Shown in pieces: positions 5,350-59,312 of a stretch of DNA of 62,942 bases. Location: positions 1 to 62,942 of IMG/VR virus record IMGVR_UViG_3300009152_000050. One strand, written 5' to 3'. Both the position numbers and the translations under genes were made by a program. The stretch's first letter is position 1. Every line of letters begins with the position of its first letter. The DNA is from a virus. The notes under the pieces are model-generated. The model had not been told where the DNA came from, did not search any database, and saw only the letters and a program-made list of their open reading frames with translations.

Positions 5350-5351
5350 TT

Positions 5352-5440
5352 GCTTATAACGTTTTCGGGCTTAGCGAAGTGGCTTTTGTGCGTTGGCTTG
5401 TGTGTCGGAAAGCCATTTTGCCAAACCCGTGTTATATGAA
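5352..5440 (+). repeat. attC-like recombination site B
   Basis: The outer cores are TTATAAC (5354-5360) and GTTATA(T) (5431-5437). Inside, CGGGCTTAGCGAAGTGGCTTT (from 5366) pairs almost throughout with the segment ending in CCAAACCCG (to 5429), with G-T wobbles at the mismatches, leaving a variable loop. This layout of imperfect stem, outer cores ending in AAC and GTT, and variable terminal loop is that of integron attC sites. The downstream core GTTATATGAA is perfectly complementary to the far end of the next cassette (TTCATATAAC, 6859-6868). Confidence 0.75.
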
Positions 5441-6858: not shown

Positions 6859-6995
6859 TTCATATAACGTTTTCGGGCTTGGCGAAGGCGGGGAGTTTAA
6901 CCACAAAAGTTTAATAGAATGACAGAAGATAATATAACCACAAATGTTCAATTGGAAAACGGAAGCCCCGCTTTTGCCAAACCCGTGTTATGTGC
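6859..6995 (+). repeat. attC-like recombination site C
   Basis: The outer cores are CATATAAC (6861-6868) and GTTATGTG (6987-6994). The stem CGGGCTTGGCGAAGGCGGGG (from 6874) pairs with GCCCCGCTTTTGCCAAACCCG (to 6985) with few mismatches, around a loop of about 70 nt. The upstream end TTCATATAAC complements the start of the preceding cassette. The downstream GTTATGTGC complements the end of the next one (GCACATAAC, 7635-7643). The ATG of the methyltransferase frame (6919) lies in the loop. Confidence 0.78.
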
Positions 6996-7629
6996 TGGTG
7001 CGGTTTCAAAAGACGGAATTTCGTTAATAAACGGAGATTGTTTGCAAGCCTTACGAGGCTATGGCGATAATCATTTTAAGATAGCAATAGTTGACCCACC
7101 TTATGGAATTAATGCAGGTAAAATGACAATGGGAAGCGGTAAGCACAAATTTAGCAAAGACAAAGATTGGGATAGTGCAATACCAAGCGAAGAGTATTTT
7201 ACCGAATTATTTAGGGTGTCTGAAAATCAAATTGTGTGGGGTGGCAATTACTTTACTGAATTTTTACCGCCTACACCACATTGGCTTTTATGGGATAAGA
7301 AAAACCCAAATTTGAGCTTTGCTGAAGGTGAGTTGGCTTGGGTGCGAAAAGGTAAAAACCTGCGGATATTTCAACACTATTCAGCACAAGTTGAAGAAGG
7401 CGGCAAAATACACCCGACACAAAAGCCTGTAAAATTATACAGGTGGATATTAAACAACTACACAAGCGAAGGGGATTTGATTTTAGACACCCATTTGGGA
7501 AGCGGGTCAATCGCCATAGCCTGCCATCAAATGAAACGAAATTTAATAGCCTATGAGATTGATGAAGAATACTACCGAAAGGCTTGCAAACGATTTGAAG
7601 AACAAACTCGTCAAACTGCACTATGGTAG
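6919..7629 (+). CDS. Cassette-borne DNA methyltransferase (DPPY, beta class)
   Basis: The enzyme transfers a methyl group from S-adenosylmethionine to N6-adenine or N4-cytosine. Motif IV DPPY is at residues 59-62; the SAM-binding motif DTHLGSGS (190-196 region) lies C-terminal, giving the beta-class order. HPTQKP at 165-170 is typical just before motif I. The ATG at 6919 is inside attC site C, so residues 1 to about 30 are encoded by the recombination site (SPAFAKPVLCAGAV). Conserved sequence begins near GISLINGDCLQAL. The true start may be a non-ATG codon such as the GTG at 6985, or the enzyme really carries an attC-encoded leader. No partner nuclease is present, so it probably protects phage DNA from host restriction. 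Confidence 0.85.
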   Translation: MTEDNITTNVQLENGSPAFAKPVLCAGAVSKDGISLINGDCLQALRGYGDNHFKIAIVDPPYGINAGKMTMGSGKHKFSKDKDWDSAIPSEEYFTELFRVSENQIVWGGNYFTEFLPPTPHWLLWDKKNPNLSFAEGELAWVRKGKNLRIFQHYSAQVEEGGKIHPTQKPVKLYRWILNNYTSEGDLILDTHLGSGSIAIACHQMKRNLIAYEIDEEYYRKACKRFEEQTRQTALW

Positions 7630-8285: not shown

Positions 8286-9119
8286 ATGAATATCGGAAAG
8301 TATATACAGTTGTATTCCGAAGATTTACGATTGAAAAATTATGCTGAATCTTCTATTTCCAATTATGTATCACAGGTTAAATGTTTTTTAGAGCATTTTT
8401 CTGATGTAGCTACAAAGCCTTCTGAAATAAACGAAAGGCAAATAAAACAATGGCTACTTTCCGCTAATTCTATTAATGGAAGAAGGCATAGATTATCAGC
8501 ATTAAAGCTATTCTATTCGCTTACAGGTAAACAGCCGTTAAAATTTAAGCACATAGAATATCCTCGGTCAGAAAAAAAATTACCAATCGTTCTGTCTGTG
8601 GAAGAAGTACAGAAAATGTTTTCAGCGTGTTCTAATACAAAACACAAGTTAATATTGGCTATTTTGTACTCTTGCGGATTACGGGTTAGTGAATTGATAA
8701 GCCTTAAATGGAATAACATTGACAGGAGCAGGATGGTAATAAATATTATTGGAGCAAAAGGGAATAAAGACCGTCAAGTACCGTTACCTGAAATACTTAT
8801 TCCTTTATTAGAAAAATACTGGTATAAATACAAAACTAAAACATACATTTTAGAGGGGCAATTTAAAGATGTATATAGCAGCAGAAGTGTACTTGAAGTA
8901 GTTAAACAATTAGCAGAAAAAGCAGGGTTAAGGAAAGATGTTTGGACGCACTTAATTCGTCATTGCTATGGAACGCATCAGGTGGAAAGTGGAGTTGACA
9001 TAAATCTCATACAGAAAATACTTGGGCATAGCAATGTTAAGACAACTAATATCTATTTACATACCTCACATAACTTAATATCTCGTATTCAATCACCTTT
9101 AAATAGTATTAATTTATGA
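8286..9119 (+). CDS. Tyrosine recombinase next to cassette array
   Basis: The protein is 277 aa, with an N-terminal SAM-like core-binding domain (about 1-85) and a C-terminal catalytic domain. The complete catalytic set is visible: R133 (GLRVSEL), K158 (GAKGNKDR), H222 and R225 (HLIRH), H248 (LGHSN) and the nucleophile Y257 (NIYLHT). It joins DNA by breaking one strand at a time through a 3'-phosphotyrosine. It lacks the extra roughly 16-residue patch of classical IntI, being closer to XerC/XerD or short phage integrases. It starts 52 nt after the terminal half-site of array I and overlaps the next gene by 4 bases (ATGA). It could serve phage integration, cassette movement, or both. Confidence 0.88.
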   Translation: MNIGKYIQLYSEDLRLKNYAESSISNYVSQVKCFLEHFSDVATKPSEINERQIKQWLLSANSINGRRHRLSALKLFYSLTGKQPLKFKHIEYPRSEKKLPIVLSVEEVQKMFSACSNTKHKLILAILYSCGLRVSELISLKWNNIDRSRMVINIIGAKGNKDRQVPLPEILIPLLEKYWYKYKTKTYILEGQFKDVYSSRSVLEVVKQLAEKAGLRKDVWTHLIRHCYGTHQVESGVDINLIQKILGHSNVKTTNIYLHTSHNLISRIQSPLNSINL

Positions 9120-54883: not shown

Positions 54884-55672
54884 ATGCGAAGCGAGGGGAA
54901 AATAGAATTGTTTAATGAGGACTGTATGCTAACTATGAAACGGATAGCATCAGGGACGGTTGATTTGATATTGACTGACCCGCCATATAACACAACGCAA
55001 TGTGAATGGGAATATGATATTGATTTAACGGCTTTATGGGCTGAATGGCAAAGGATATTGAAGCCCAATGGAGTAATATGTGTTTTTGCAGATGAACCAT
55101 TTACAAGCCGTTTAATCGTTTCAAAATTGGATTGGTTTAAAATTAGGATTACTTGGGATAAAATGACTGGCTCAAACTTTTTGAATGCTAAAAAAATGCC
55201 GTTAAAACAAACTGAAGATGTAGTAATTTTTTCAGGCGTTAAAAATGGGCAATACACTTACAACCCGATTTTAACTGATAAACCTAAACACAATATAAGA
55301 CCCGTTGGAAATAGAAAGCCAAGTGTAAATAATACTACATACGGACAACACAGCGGACAATATTCAGCGGATTACGACCCAACAAAGAACTATCCGACAA
55401 ACTTACTTTCAATAATGGCAAAGCAAGATGAATGTAATAGCGTGAACCGATGGCATCCAACTCAAAAACCTACAGAGATTATGCAATGGCTTGTAAAGAC
55501 ATTTAGCAACCAACACGAAATTGTTTTTGATGGATATAGTGGAAGCGGAGTAACTGCCATTGCTTGTGAAATTGAAAATAGAAACTTTATAGGAAGTGAA
55601 TTGAATGAGGAATATTACAAAAAAGCATTACAACGAATTAAAGATGAAACAGCACAACTTAAAATATTTTAA
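54884..55672 (+). CDS. Cassette-borne DNA methyltransferase (DPPY, beta class)
   Basis: 262 aa. Motif IV DPPY at residues 32-35 and the SAM-binding FDGYSGSG at 215-222 give the beta-class order. RWHPTQKP (189-196) precedes motif I. ATG at 54884 follows an AAATGCGAAG leader. It probably methylates adenine or cytosine in short palindromes. It is the only gene between attC-like core 54820 and 55769, and its relationship to the array I methylase is only at the level of class. No restriction enzyme partner seen. Confidence 0.85.
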   Translation: MRSEGKIELFNEDCMLTMKRIASGTVDLILTDPPYNTTQCEWEYDIDLTALWAEWQRILKPNGVICVFADEPFTSRLIVSKLDWFKIRITWDKMTGSNFLNAKKMPLKQTEDVVIFSGVKNGQYTYNPILTDKPKHNIRPVGNRKPSVNNTTYGQHSGQYSADYDPTKNYPTNLLSIMAKQDECNSVNRWHPTQKPTEIMQWLVKTFSNQHEIVFDGYSGSGVTAIACEIENRNFIGSELNEEYYKKALQRIKDETAQLKIF

Positions 55673-55867: not shown

Positions 55868-56140
55868 ATGACACAAATTTCAGCAATCGCATTATCACTA
55901 TTAAATGGTGAAACATTAAGTATTATGGATGGGTACAGAAAGTTTGCCTGTTCTAATTTACCAAGAGAAATATCAAGAGGTATAGAGCAAAAGTTTGGGG
56001 TAAGAGTAGAAAGAACTCCCACTAAATTTATTTCAAGATACGGGCAGTCTGGCTCTTATCATAAATACCACCTACTTAATTCAGATCAAAATAAAGACGG
56101 AATAAAAAAAATGAAAGAATATATAAAAGAAAATATTTGA
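55868..56140 (+). CDS. Helix-turn-helix protein, 90 aa
   Basis: MTQISAIALSLLNGETLSIMDGYRKF and NLPREISRGIEQKFGVRVERTPTKF form a two-helix DNA-binding layout like small phage HTH proteins. FISRYGQSGSYHKYHLL suggests a winged extension. Its end overlaps the start of the leader promoter (56136-56139). It may control the replication operon or act in replication initiation. Confidence 0.6.
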   Translation: MTQISAIALSLLNGETLSIMDGYRKFACSNLPREISRGIEQKFGVRVERTPTKFISRYGQSGSYHKYHLLNSDQNKDGIKKMKEYIKENI

Positions 56141-56167
56141 TTGTATTGTTTTTTCCCTTTATCTTTG
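56136..56167 (+). promoter_or_regulatory. Promoter of the replication operon
   Basis: TTTG at 56136-56139, 20 bp, TATCTTTG at 56160-56167: a perfect match to the Bacteroidota promoter. The start point should fall near 56173, where the structured leader begins. Confidence 0.85.
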
Positions 56168-56171
56168 ATTT

Positions 56172-56289
56172 GCGAAAACCTAAAAATGAAATTATACAAA
56201 TACATAACATTTTTTATACACAGCTAATCCGCTGCGGTTAATCTTTCTTACGCCTTCTTGCGTACGGGGTTTTCGCAGCCGCAGCGGAT
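56172..56289 (+). promoter_or_regulatory. Structured leader RNA with competing stems before replication genes
   Basis: Three arms can be seen. GCGAAAACC (56172-56180, the very start of the transcript) is a perfect complement of GGTTTTCGC (56268-56276). ATCCGCTGCGG (56227-56237) is a perfect complement of CCGCAGCGGAT (56279-56289), and a small inner hairpin TACGC/GCGTA (56249-56264) lies within. The first and second long stems cross each other, so they form either a pseudoknot or two exclusive folds. The region is G+C-rich inside an AT-rich genome. A 13-codon reading frame lies at 56186-56227. An attenuator, a regulatory RNA or a replication origin structure are all possible. Confidence 0.65.
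56186..56227 (+). CDS. Leader peptide candidate, 13 aa
   Basis: ATG at 56186, TAA at 56225-56227; the peptide is MKLYKYITFFIHS. It sits within the structured leader; its stop codon overlaps the first base of the stem that begins at 56227. A ribosome stalled here would decide which stem forms. Too short to prove coding. Confidence 0.3.
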   Translation: MKLYKYITFFIHS

Positions 56290-56307
56290 AGGCTTATTTT
56301 TATTATT

Positions 56308-56835
56308 ATGGCTAAACGACTTACCGATTCGGAAAAATGGAATGACGATTGGTTTATATCATTAGATAATGATTACCGAATCATTTGGATATGGTTACTT
56401 GATAATTGCAGCCATGCTGGTATCTGTAAAAGGAGCATGAAATTGTTAAATATGATGTGTAATACCAATATTACGGAGGAAGAATTATTAAAGCAAATGG
56501 AAGAAAGGGTTGTTTTAGTAGATAATAACTGGTTCATTCCCAAGTTTTTAAAATTTCAATACGCAAATTTGCATAGCGATAGACCTGTAATTGTTTCGGT
56601 AGTAAAAGAGTTAGTTAAATTAGGTTATGATAAATTAATTCCTGAATCATTTGGTAATGATTACTTAATGATTAAGGATAAAAGTAAGGATAAGGATATT
56701 AGTATTGTTAAACATAAAAAAAACGAAAATGGAAAATTTAGCGGAAACTTTAAATCACAGGGGGAAGAATTTTTCTTTGGCAGAATTGAAAAAGGATTTG
56801 AAAAATTTAGGGAAAGTAGAGTGTCTGGTGATTGA
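56308..56835 (+). CDS. Replication initiator-like protein, 175 aa
   Basis: The beginning (MAKRLTDSEKWNDDWFISLDNDYRIIWIWLLDNCSHAGICKRSMKLLNMM) resembles replisome-organiser/DnaD-like N-terminal domains of phages, with NNWFIPKFLKFQYANLHSDRPVIV in the middle. A low-complexity charged tail follows (KDKSKDKDISIVKHKKNENG). It is the first gene of the replication operon after the leader. The tail overlaps the next gene by 107 bases in another frame. Confidence 0.6.
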   Translation: MAKRLTDSEKWNDDWFISLDNDYRIIWIWLLDNCSHAGICKRSMKLLNMMCNTNITEEELLKQMEERVVLVDNNWFIPKFLKFQYANLHSDRPVIVSVVKELVKLGYDKLIPESFGNDYLMIKDKSKDKDISIVKHKKNENGKFSGNFKSQGEEFFFGRIEKGFEKFRESRVSGD

Positions 56836-57223
56836 TGCAAGATTAGAAGGAAAAACATTTTCCCAAATGTCGGAGGAAGAATTAGTAGTAGCAGTAGATC
56901 AAATAATTTTAAGGAGTAGTGCAGAAATTGGGTGCGACCTTCCTTTTACAGAAATGTTTTCAAATGTACTTTCAGAACAAATAATATTATTTATTAATAA
57001 TTGCGGGTACGAAAATTATACTTTAAGGGAAGTGTTATTATCTTTTCAGATTAACCTAATACACCCATTACCAAAATATTTAGCAGTAGAATTACATGAA
57101 GTTATTTTTTCAGGTCGTTGTGTAAACGTAAGTTTTATATCCAAGACTTTGAGTAATTATAAGGAGATAAGGCATCAACTTGACAGGAAATTACAAAACT
57201 TTATAGACGGCTATCAGCAATAA
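56729..57223 (+). CDS. Replication-operon protein, 164 aa, unknown
   Basis: The frame opens at 56705, but the ATG at 56729 (MENLAETLNHRGKNF) is preferred. It overlaps the end of the initiator-like gene by 107 bases in another frame. Mainly helical (SEEELVVAVDQIILRSS; LRKLQNFI-like end). It might be a helicase loader, given its place between initiator-like and helicase genes, but no AAA+ motif is present. Confidence 0.6.
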   Translation: MENLAETLNHRGKNFSLAELKKDLKNLGKVECLVIDARLEGKTFSQMSEEELVVAVDQIILRSSAEIGCDLPFTEMFSNVLSEQIILFINNCGYENYTLREVLLSFQINLIHPLPKYLAVELHEVIFSGRCVNVSFISKTLSNYKEIRHQLDRKLQNFIDGYQQ

Positions 57224-57245: not shown

Positions 57246-59312
57246 ATGAATTGTGAAAATTTATTAGAATTTGATGGCCTACAATTTATGCCAGTAAAAA
57301 ACAATAAGCAACCTATTGTAAAAGGGTGGCAAACGTATAATGGCAAACACAATTTAAGTAATTGCGATGCAGTAGGGATTGTATGTGGTTCATTAAGTGG
57401 AGGGTTAGAGGTTATTGACGTAGATAGCAAATATGATTTAGTTGGTAATTTGTTTGAAAACTATAAAAGATTAATTCATTCTACTAACCCAGATTTATTA
57501 GCTAAACTTGTTGTACAGAAAACAAAGGGTGGTGGGTATCATTTAATTTACCGATGTAGTCAAATTTCGGGAAACCTAAAATTAGCAAACAGGCAAACTA
57601 CCGAAGAAGAAAAACAAGATACTTACAACAAAACATATCAAGCTGAAATACTAAATGGCGATGACGCTGCCGCAGTAACAAGGGCTAAGAAAGCGTCTGT
57701 AAACGACAAGGTAAGGGTATTGTTAGAAACAAGGGGGCAGGGAGGATTTATAATGTGCTACCCGTCTAAGGGGTATGAAATAATACATGGTGATTATTAT
57801 TCTATAAGTGAAATTAGTCCTGATGAAAGAGAAACATTACATAGTATAGCAAGGCAGTTTAATACGGTTGTAGATGAAGTAGTAATACCAAAAACTGCAC
57901 AAATTAAAACTAAAGGGGTATCATCATTTGAAGATTATAATAATCGTGGGGATGTGGTTCAATTACTTCAAAACAACGGATGGAAAGTAGTATCTCAAAA
58001 AGGAAGAAAAACTATATTCATAAGACCCGGCCAAACTACTGCGCAAACTTCGGGTAATTACGATCACGATAGAAAATGGTTTAGTGTGTTTACTACAAGC
58101 ACCGAATTTGAACCAGAAAAAGCATATTTACCTTACGCTGTTTTTGCAATTTTAGAATGTAATAAAGATTTTTCAGTAGCAAGTAAAAAATTATACGAAT
58201 TAGGATTTGGCGAAAGGGAAGAATCGGCTATAAAAGAAAAAGCACAAAGTACAAGACAAATATCTTCAAGAGTAAATTCTGATGATGAAGATTATTCATT
58301 TTTAGCAAAACCCGAAGATTACGATGACTACCTACAATCTGTAAGGGATGGAACATTGGTACAAGGATTAACAACAGGCATACCTTCTCTTGATAATTAT
58401 TTTGTATTTAAAGAGGGTAATATGGTTATGACTAATGGTCATGATAACGCAGGTAAGAGTGTAGTGGTGTGGTACTTAGCTTTACTTTCTGCAATGTATC
58501 ATAATTGGAATTGGATAATTTTTGCAAGTGAAAATACGATTGGAGGCTTTATGCGAAAGATGATTCAGTTCTATGTAGGTAAGCCATTAAACGGAAAGTT
58601 TGCAATGAGTGATAGTGAATACCATACTGCAAAAAAGTTTATTGAGAGCCACTTTTCATCAATAAAGGCAGAGGAAGATATGTATAACTATAAAGATATT
58701 ATCAATATGGTTAAAAAGGCATCTAAGGTAAAAAAGTATCATTCTGTAATGATAGACCCCTACAATGGTTTAAAGATTGATTTAAGCGGTTTTAGTAAGT
58801 TAAGTACACATGAGTACCATTATGAAGCATTAAGCGATTTAAAGCTATACGGAAAGAAGAATAACATAGGTATTTGGGTAAACCACCATGCGGTAACGGC
58901 TGCATTAAGGCAAAAGGATGGAGAAAAAAAATATCCAGTAGCACCACAAAAAGCAGATACAGAGGGTGGAGGTAAGGTAGGTAATAAAACAGATGACTTT
59001 CTAACTATTCACAGGGTTACGCAGCACCCTACCGAATGGATGGTTACAGAATTACACGTTAGAAAAATAAAAGATACAGATACAGGAGGCAGGGTTACTC
59101 CAATAGATTCACCTGTAAAGTTAGAAATGTATAAAAATGGGTGTGCTTTTTTAGAAAGATTAGAAATGGGTGGAAATCCGATTGACCCAATTCATTCGTG
59201 GCACATGAGTAAAGAATTAAAACAGACTGAATTACCGGCAATAAAGGAAGAACCAAGCGTAACTAATTGGATGCCTATGGCTGATGCTAATGGCGAAGCA
59301 ATAAACTTTTAA
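57246..59312 (+). CDS. Bifunctional prim-pol / DnaB-like helicase
   Basis: 688 aa with two enzyme parts. The N-terminal part is a prim-pol-type primase: residues 44-60 (GIVCGSLSGGLEVIDVD, with the DVD metal motif at 58-60), then GGGYHLIY at 95-102. After a linker of about 250 residues the C-terminal part is a DnaB/RecA-fold helicase with Walker A GHDNAGKS (398-405), Walker B VMIDP (501-505), and WVNHH. It should open DNA and lay primers. Fusion of both functions suits a phage that relies on host DNA polymerase; I found no polymerase gene in the window. Confidence 0.85.
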   Translation: MNCENLLEFDGLQFMPVKNNKQPIVKGWQTYNGKHNLSNCDAVGIVCGSLSGGLEVIDVDSKYDLVGNLFENYKRLIHSTNPDLLAKLVVQKTKGGGYHLIYRCSQISGNLKLANRQTTEEEKQDTYNKTYQAEILNGDDAAAVTRAKKASVNDKVRVLLETRGQGGFIMCYPSKGYEIIHGDYYSISEISPDERETLHSIARQFNTVVDEVVIPKTAQIKTKGVSSFEDYNNRGDVVQLLQNNGWKVVSQKGRKTIFIRPGQTTAQTSGNYDHDRKWFSVFTTSTEFEPEKAYLPYAVFAILECNKDFSVASKKLYELGFGEREESAIKEKAQSTRQISSRVNSDDEDYSFLAKPEDYDDYLQSVRDGTLVQGLTTGIPSLDNYFVFKEGNMVMTNGHDNAGKSVVVWYLALLSAMYHNWNWIIFASENTIGGFMRKMIQFYVGKPLNGKFAMSDSEYHTAKKFIESHFSSIKAEEDMYNYKDIINMVKKASKVKKYHSVMIDPYNGLKIDLSGFSKLSTHEYHYEALSDLKLYGKKNNIGIWVNHHAVTAALRQKDGEKKYPVAPQKADTEGGGKVGNKTDDFLTIHRVTQHPTEWMVTELHVRKIKDTDTGGRVTPIDSPVKLEMYKNGCAFLERLEMGGNPIDPIHSWHMSKELKQTELPAIKEEPSVTNWMPMADANGEAINF

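Follow-up and report, generated by a model that had tools for sequence, protein, structure and literature searches.

The stretch of DNA that was analysed (the window) spans all 62,942 bases of an IMG/VR virus record. The first gene of its replication operon, at 56308-56835 on the plus strand, encodes a 175-aa protein (MAKRLTDSEKW...) and is followed on the same strand by a gene for a 688-aa Prim-Pol primase-polymerase/helicase (57246-59312; PF09250, 9.8e-8; phrog_19930, DNA polymerase/primase, 8e-78). The 175-aa protein has no match in Pfam or PHROG; we call it rep, a function inferred from its position and from its homologues, a family whose genes often lie beside those for primases or helicases. 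A tyrosine integrase gene at 8286-9119 indicates that the phage is temperate. All relatives that carry the leader described below are uncultured virus contigs, and the assignment of their hosts to the Bacteroidetes rests on the promoter type and on related proteins.

Several other features of the window are recorded here for completeness. Upstream of the operon, the segment 54738-55765 contains an N6/N4 DNA methyltransferase gene (54884-55672) that is flanked by two inverted repeats, one of 20 nt and perfect (54868-54887/55703-55722), the other of 16 nt and 88% identity (54819-54834/55755-55770). This segment looks like an exchanged cassette, because a close relative (L004/L013) has a different sequence of about 490 nt in its place. 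The protein encoded at 5926-6789 matches the beta-glucosyl-HMC-alpha-glucosyltransferase family (phrog_842, 2e-35), which suggests DNA base modification, and a second DNA methyltransferase gene follows it at 6919-7629. An intergenic structured element at 5350-5440 contains the pairing GCGAAGTGGCTTTT/GAAAGCCATTTTGC and the ends TATAACG/CGTGTTATA.

Transcription of the replication operon would start from a Bacteroidetes-type promoter on the plus strand (56136-56167), identified from the sequence and by a consensus scan: TTTG at 56136-56139, a 20-nt spacer and TATCTTTG at 56160-56167, in agreement with the Bacteroidetes -33/-7 consensus. The -7 element is also present in the aligned relative L003/L004. 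The transcript would begin with an arm that we call A, TTGCGAAAACCT (56170-56181, core 56171-56180). Its complement, A' (56267-56278), lies on the 3' side of a hairpin loop and adjoins the right arm of that hairpin. The core of A, TGCGAAAACC (56171-56180), is perfectly complementary over 10 bp to GGTTTTCGCA (56268-56277), and with G-U ends the helix runs to 12 contiguous pairs (56170-56181/56267-56278). The hairpin itself is formed by B and B', which are perfectly complementary over 11 bp (56227-56237/56279-56289) and can be extended to 16-nt arms at 88% (56222-56237/56279-56294). An inner hairpin, TACGC-CTTCTT-GCGTA (56249-56264), is predicted within the B/B' loop. The order of the four arms is thus A-B-A'-B', with a gap of 1 nt from A' to B', so that the two stems cross. 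A mini-ORF of 13 codons (MKLYKYITFFIHS and a stop; 56186-56227) starts 5 nt past A and its stop overlaps B. The leader forms a patch of 44-45% G+C in surroundings of about 30%. The promoter, the complementarity of the transcript start to a downstream site, the second perfect stem crossing the first, the 13-codon ORF reaching its left arm and the G+C-rich patch had all been pointed out in an earlier note on this DNA, and each of them was confirmed. Absent from that description was a T-rich run, TTATTTTT (56294-56301), which comes after B' and which the same kind of detector finds in relatives. Because of this run B/B' has the layout of an intrinsic terminator: a very stable hairpin (computed at about -37 kcal/mol), then a U-rich run, then a gene, the ATG of rep lying 13 nt past the end of B'.

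The inverted repeats could in principle be a dispersed mobile repeat or a coincidence, and the block is indeed found in one clade of close relatives only. The shuffle statistics argue against this. When the 5' region (53 nt) is dinucleotide-shuffled 4000 times, no shuffle pairs with the hairpin as well as the real sequence does, and only 4 of 4000 do so when 110 nt upstream are shuffled instead; an 11-bp perfect inverted repeat appears in 2 of 2000 shuffled stretches. The predicted fold of 56169-56310 has an energy of -38.4 kcal/mol (z = -4.15), and none of 200 shuffles folds as low. Moreover, neither arm is repeated elsewhere in the window, viral contigs hold the same leader only, once in each of three records (one being this phage), and 84,980 species genomes contain 0 copies. 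With copies confined to the same leader, a dispersed repeat or mobile palindrome is refuted at the level tested, and repeat or coincidence together strike us as extremely improbable.

Among the nearest relatives, one lineage of about 86% DNA identity (L003 = L012, L004 = L013) carries the same leader. In the alignment with L003/L004 an 81-nt block (56221-56301, plus strand) comprising the hairpin, its loop and the T-run is identical, in loci that are about 86% identical overall; upstream of it, the mini-ORF region differs at several positions while its length and frame are kept. Within the same lineage (L018) A is changed from AAAACCT to AAAATCCC, and the pairing with the unchanged A' is retained over 13 contiguous pairs. 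The window's own lineage offers just two distinct leader sequences; for this reason it contains no compensatory change in the window's own stems, and the covariation evidence derives from relatives. In six rep homologues of 70-75% protein identity (L005-L010) this leader is absent and another small gene takes its place, from which it follows that the element is dispensable or replaceable.

The covariation comes from a family of nine leaders, collected with a DNA pattern derived from three leaders in their B region: L209 (= L226), L212 (= L214, L249), L219, L220, L238, L240, L244, L246 and L255. The pattern fixes B, which inflates the apparent conservation of B; B' and A/A' are not affected. 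In this family the A-A' helix is 100% paired with zero G-U pairs, and both sides have changed in six of its eight pairs. The whole named structure (alignment A5) is 96% paired as against 75% in shuffled alignments, and both sides have changed in 13 of 22 pairs. Its covariation score is 0.668, compared with 0.244 ± 0.032 after shuffling and at most 0.226 when slid. Seven A/A' alleles occur (CCTTCAAC, (G)CACTTCAC, CCTCTTAC, TCCTTCAC, CCTCTAAC, CGTCTAAC and CTCTTCAC), every one matched by an exactly complementary A', and GCACTTCAC stands beside CCTCTTAC and CCTTCAAC among the natural leader alleles. A' sits in the 10-nt loop of a 4-bp stem, which covaries too (three of four pairs). The earlier note had staked its reading on covariation or conserved pairing in related phages; the compensatory changes in A-A' within this family, and the recurrence before rep homologues given below, supply both.

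At the variable A/A' positions, differences are about twice as frequent as in the remainder of the leader, whereas B/B' is nearly invariant within subfamilies. This contrast is as expected of a specificity element, although the fast change of A/A' could in part be drift, and the small P3 stem also varies. The same type of leader stands before different replication-initiator-like genes: a MAKRFTDS-type rep, a DUF6291-type protein (L240, L244 and L255), a relative of phage proteins that are annotated for replication initiation (L246) and a protein with a weak, sub-threshold HTH match (L238). One allele is common to L219 and L255, which have different genes downstream.

These comparisons also bear on whether the element acts as DNA, either as two operator copies or as a replication-origin structure bound by Rep, the latter having been the second possibility in the earlier note. 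Each arm in the window is a near-palindrome, CCGC-T-GCGG, the two lie 52 bp apart, about five helical turns, and the element sits before rep. The arms of related leaders, however, are non-palindromic and unrelated, while the complementarity, the T-run and the position are kept, and the window contains no further copies. An origin is unsupported because arms that differ wholly between relatives while pairing and terminator context are retained fit RNA pairing and not an initiator binding site, and we regard a DNA element of either kind as very unlikely. Of the earlier note's two suggestions, the attenuator or switch layout has gained from the crossing stems, the terminator-like second stem, the covariation and the recurrence, whereas the origin structure finds no support, given the divergence of the arms.

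Leaders lying immediately before distant rep homologues share the order A-B-A'-B'-T-run-ATG, in sequences that are unrelated. The A/A' pairs are GCGATTCAAG/CTTGGATCGC in L034, GGCAAGGA/TCCTTGCC in L029, GGGATTGGC/GCCAATCCC in L167, AGTAAGGC/GCCTTACT in L190, GTAGGCT/AGCCTAC in L147, GGGTATAGGA/TCCTATGCCC in L192, GGGAGGGC/GCTCTCCC in L181 and GGTGAAG/CTTCACC in L039, with 21 contiguous pairs in L098 and 19 in L182. In most of these leaders A is near the predicted transcription start. In the rep leaders of L190, L191 and L147 an upstream hairpin of their own displays A in its loop, where A-A' would be a kissing-loop (loop-loop) contact. Altogether, a crossing A/A' inside the rep-leader terminator is found in about 12 leader families.

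Because the layout was first noticed by eye in these loci, the fair test is a comparison with unselected terminators, not the individual p-values. Using one detector throughout, 10 of 15 distinct rep-leader terminators have an A-A' helix score of at least 20, compared with 156 of 1405 other terminators from the same loci and from other fetched records (Fisher p = 7e-7); the figure of 10/15 is conservative, as the detector missed the window, L018 and L039 and scored L098 on the wrong terminator. Terminators not associated with rep agree with their own shuffled null. We could thus reject the layout as a general property of phage terminators: with no gene within 95 nt, 40 terminators reach a score of at least 22 where 38.4 are expected. 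Where a gene does follow, there is a small excess over the shuffled null, which consists in part of the rep leaders themselves. Control terminators before other genes have the same layout at L114:440-560, L189:510-620 and L200:200-300; the L114 pairing, ATCTAACGCAGGGC/GCCCTGCGTTAGAT (14 bp), lies upstream of the stretch leading to rep. The A-B-A'-B' architecture may extend beyond rep leaders. By eye, no such leader was seen in five annotated phages whose Rep proteins are similar (Flavobacterium elemoE, Nitratiruptor NrS-4, Vibrio 1.112.O, Lactobacillus phiLdb and Psychrobacter D'Alembert), and a search of species genomes for rep homologues gave none that was confirmed.

Predicted folds of prefixes and of complete leaders suggest the order of events that the layout would impose. 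When the prefix ends at A', the full A-A' helix is optimal in all 11 leaders computed. When the terminator is complete, the nested optimum loses A-A' in seven of the 11, with the B-B' terminator optimal; in L098, L167, L147 and L192 the nested optimum keeps A-A', the cut-off in L147 having fallen before B'. In these computed folds the change from prefix to full length is what one would expect of an attenuator whose A-A' helix forms early and later meets competition from B-B'. Alternatively, the two stems could be present together in a pseudoknot instead of competing. A rival reading takes the leader for a constitutive partial terminator or pseudoknot that does not switch: B/B' would lower rep expression, and A-A' would protect the 5' end or stabilise the leader RNA. 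The stability of B/B' suits such a scheme, as does the fact that the pseudoknot is sterically possible, but it leaves the compensatory upkeep of a diversifying A-A' helix unexplained and we consider it unlikely.

The mini-ORF provides a different route to attenuation, purely in cis. A ribosome translating the mini-ORF, or positioned at the stop codon, would cover B and block B/B', so that transcription continues; an initiating ribosome would also cover A, and the A-A' helix would in turn prevent initiation on the mini-ORF. The geometry is suitable, with the start so close behind A and the stop contacting B. The corresponding ORF in L003/L004 (MKLYKKIFYFIPS and a stop) has equal length and the same frame despite 8 nt differences, and an ATG is found at or shortly after A in leaders L034, L029, L098, L115 and L182. 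The nucleotide differences in the window's lineage are, however, mostly non-synonymous, the peptide contains neither a codon run nor a known arrest motif, and the ATG is missing from this place in most leaders of the covarying family (L209, L212, L220, L240, L244, L246 and L255). Because of this absence we conclude that the mini-ORF is real but not general, and is not the general driver of the leader; control by the ribosome in cis seems to us rather improbable, if less so than a terminator that does not switch.

Our preferred reading, to which we assign a probability of about 0.6, is that the leader attenuates transcription of the phage replication operon, with A-A' competing against the terminator. 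As A' is transcribed before B', A-A' would form first and delay B-B', and the polymerase would continue into rep (the ON state). With A or A' occupied (the OFF state), B-B' would be unhindered and transcription would halt before rep. The occupying molecule may be the terminated leader itself, acting as a repressor in trans, for which we put the chances a little short of even. Since the complement lies on the same strand, the terminated leader would carry an exposed A' able to act on a nascent A; capturing it would favour termination. Such terminated leaders would build up from a resident prophage or from replicating copies, and would shut the replication genes both of their own phage and of any superinfecting phage that shares its A/A' allele. 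Capture in trans would thereby amount to feedback on the replication genes combined with allele-specific immunity. The diversification of A/A', its display in small loops and its re-pairing with different rep genes favour action in trans, although the present results are compatible with both cis and trans action.

Database searches place the leader in no described class. Rfam 15 has no match for the window or for 16 related loci, a permissive scan giving only sub-threshold matches at chance level, and BLAST of the leader against annotated phages and plasmids likewise gave only chance-level matches. A metabolite riboswitch finds no support, as the sequences differ entirely from one leader family to another, with no conserved ligand-binding core and no Rfam match. 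In open-licence papers we found no description of this class of leader, the analogues found being P4, c4 and IsrK, and the RNA-based phage immunity found there concerns a few enterobacterial elements (P4, P1/P7).

Plasmid replication genes provide two comparisons. The rep attenuators of pT181 and pIP501 are controlled by antisense RNA, a countertranscript from the opposite strand. They resemble the leader in that alternative folds determine whether transcription stops at a terminator or continues into the gene for a replication initiator; in the leader, however, the complement is on the same strand, and a scan of the minus strand at 56300-56970 for a Bacteroidetes-type -33/-7 promoter that could drive a countertranscript found none. 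The rep leaders of IncI/IncB plasmids combine a leader peptide, RepY, with a pseudoknot that promotes rep translation. Here too a putative leader peptide, stems that may compete and a possible pseudoknot precede a rep gene, but the second stem of our leader looks like a transcription terminator and its leader peptide is not general.

By analogy the leader would work most like the CI RNA of satellite phage P4 and the c4 RNA of P1/P7. Immunity in P4 uses seqA, seqB and seqC, and the CI RNA is processed from a transcript. As in P4, the 5' part of a replication leader is complementary, on the same strand, to a structured RNA from that leader, and transcription of the replication genes of a temperate element is terminated prematurely (PMC4825925), the termination being a prediction in our case. 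The c4 antisense RNA displays its complementary sequences in loops and underlies heteroimmunity (PMC12197685), and the loop display in our leaders is similar. Complementary repressor and target on the same strand of one leader are found both in the window and in related leaders; control of a replication or antirepressor operon in a temperate element is indicated by position only (Prim-Pol downstream, tyrosine integrase). In contrast to P4, the hairpin bearing A' is itself intrinsic-terminator-like, with its T-run directly before rep, and the proposed RNA would be the terminated leader only, whereas that of P4 is processed. In contrast to c4, which targets translation of the antirepressor gene ant, our leader would act on a replication operon, with an intrinsic terminator as its readout. 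A second target like seqC of P4 was not found, the window having no further copy of A at up to one mismatch and scattered matches at two. We assign the leader to neither system because it has no Rfam match and no second target and because a stem resembling an intrinsic terminator replaces the processed RNA.

More broadly, and tentatively, we propose a widespread class of RNAs for phage immunity or the control of replication, undescribed as judged from Rfam and the open-licence literature, in which a self-complementary attenuator opens phage replication operons and the RNA it releases on termination is its own allele-specific repressor in trans. A/A' would then be a fast-evolving specificity of immunity that can be matched anew to different initiator genes; at four chances in ten or so this is a less secure proposal than the attenuator itself. 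The leader is a compact module suited to tests in reporter plasmids, and the phages bearing it include both those with Bacteroidetes-type and those with sigma70-like promoters. A recurrent, covarying leader before replication genes would point to RNA-controlled attenuation as a common form of replication control in phages.
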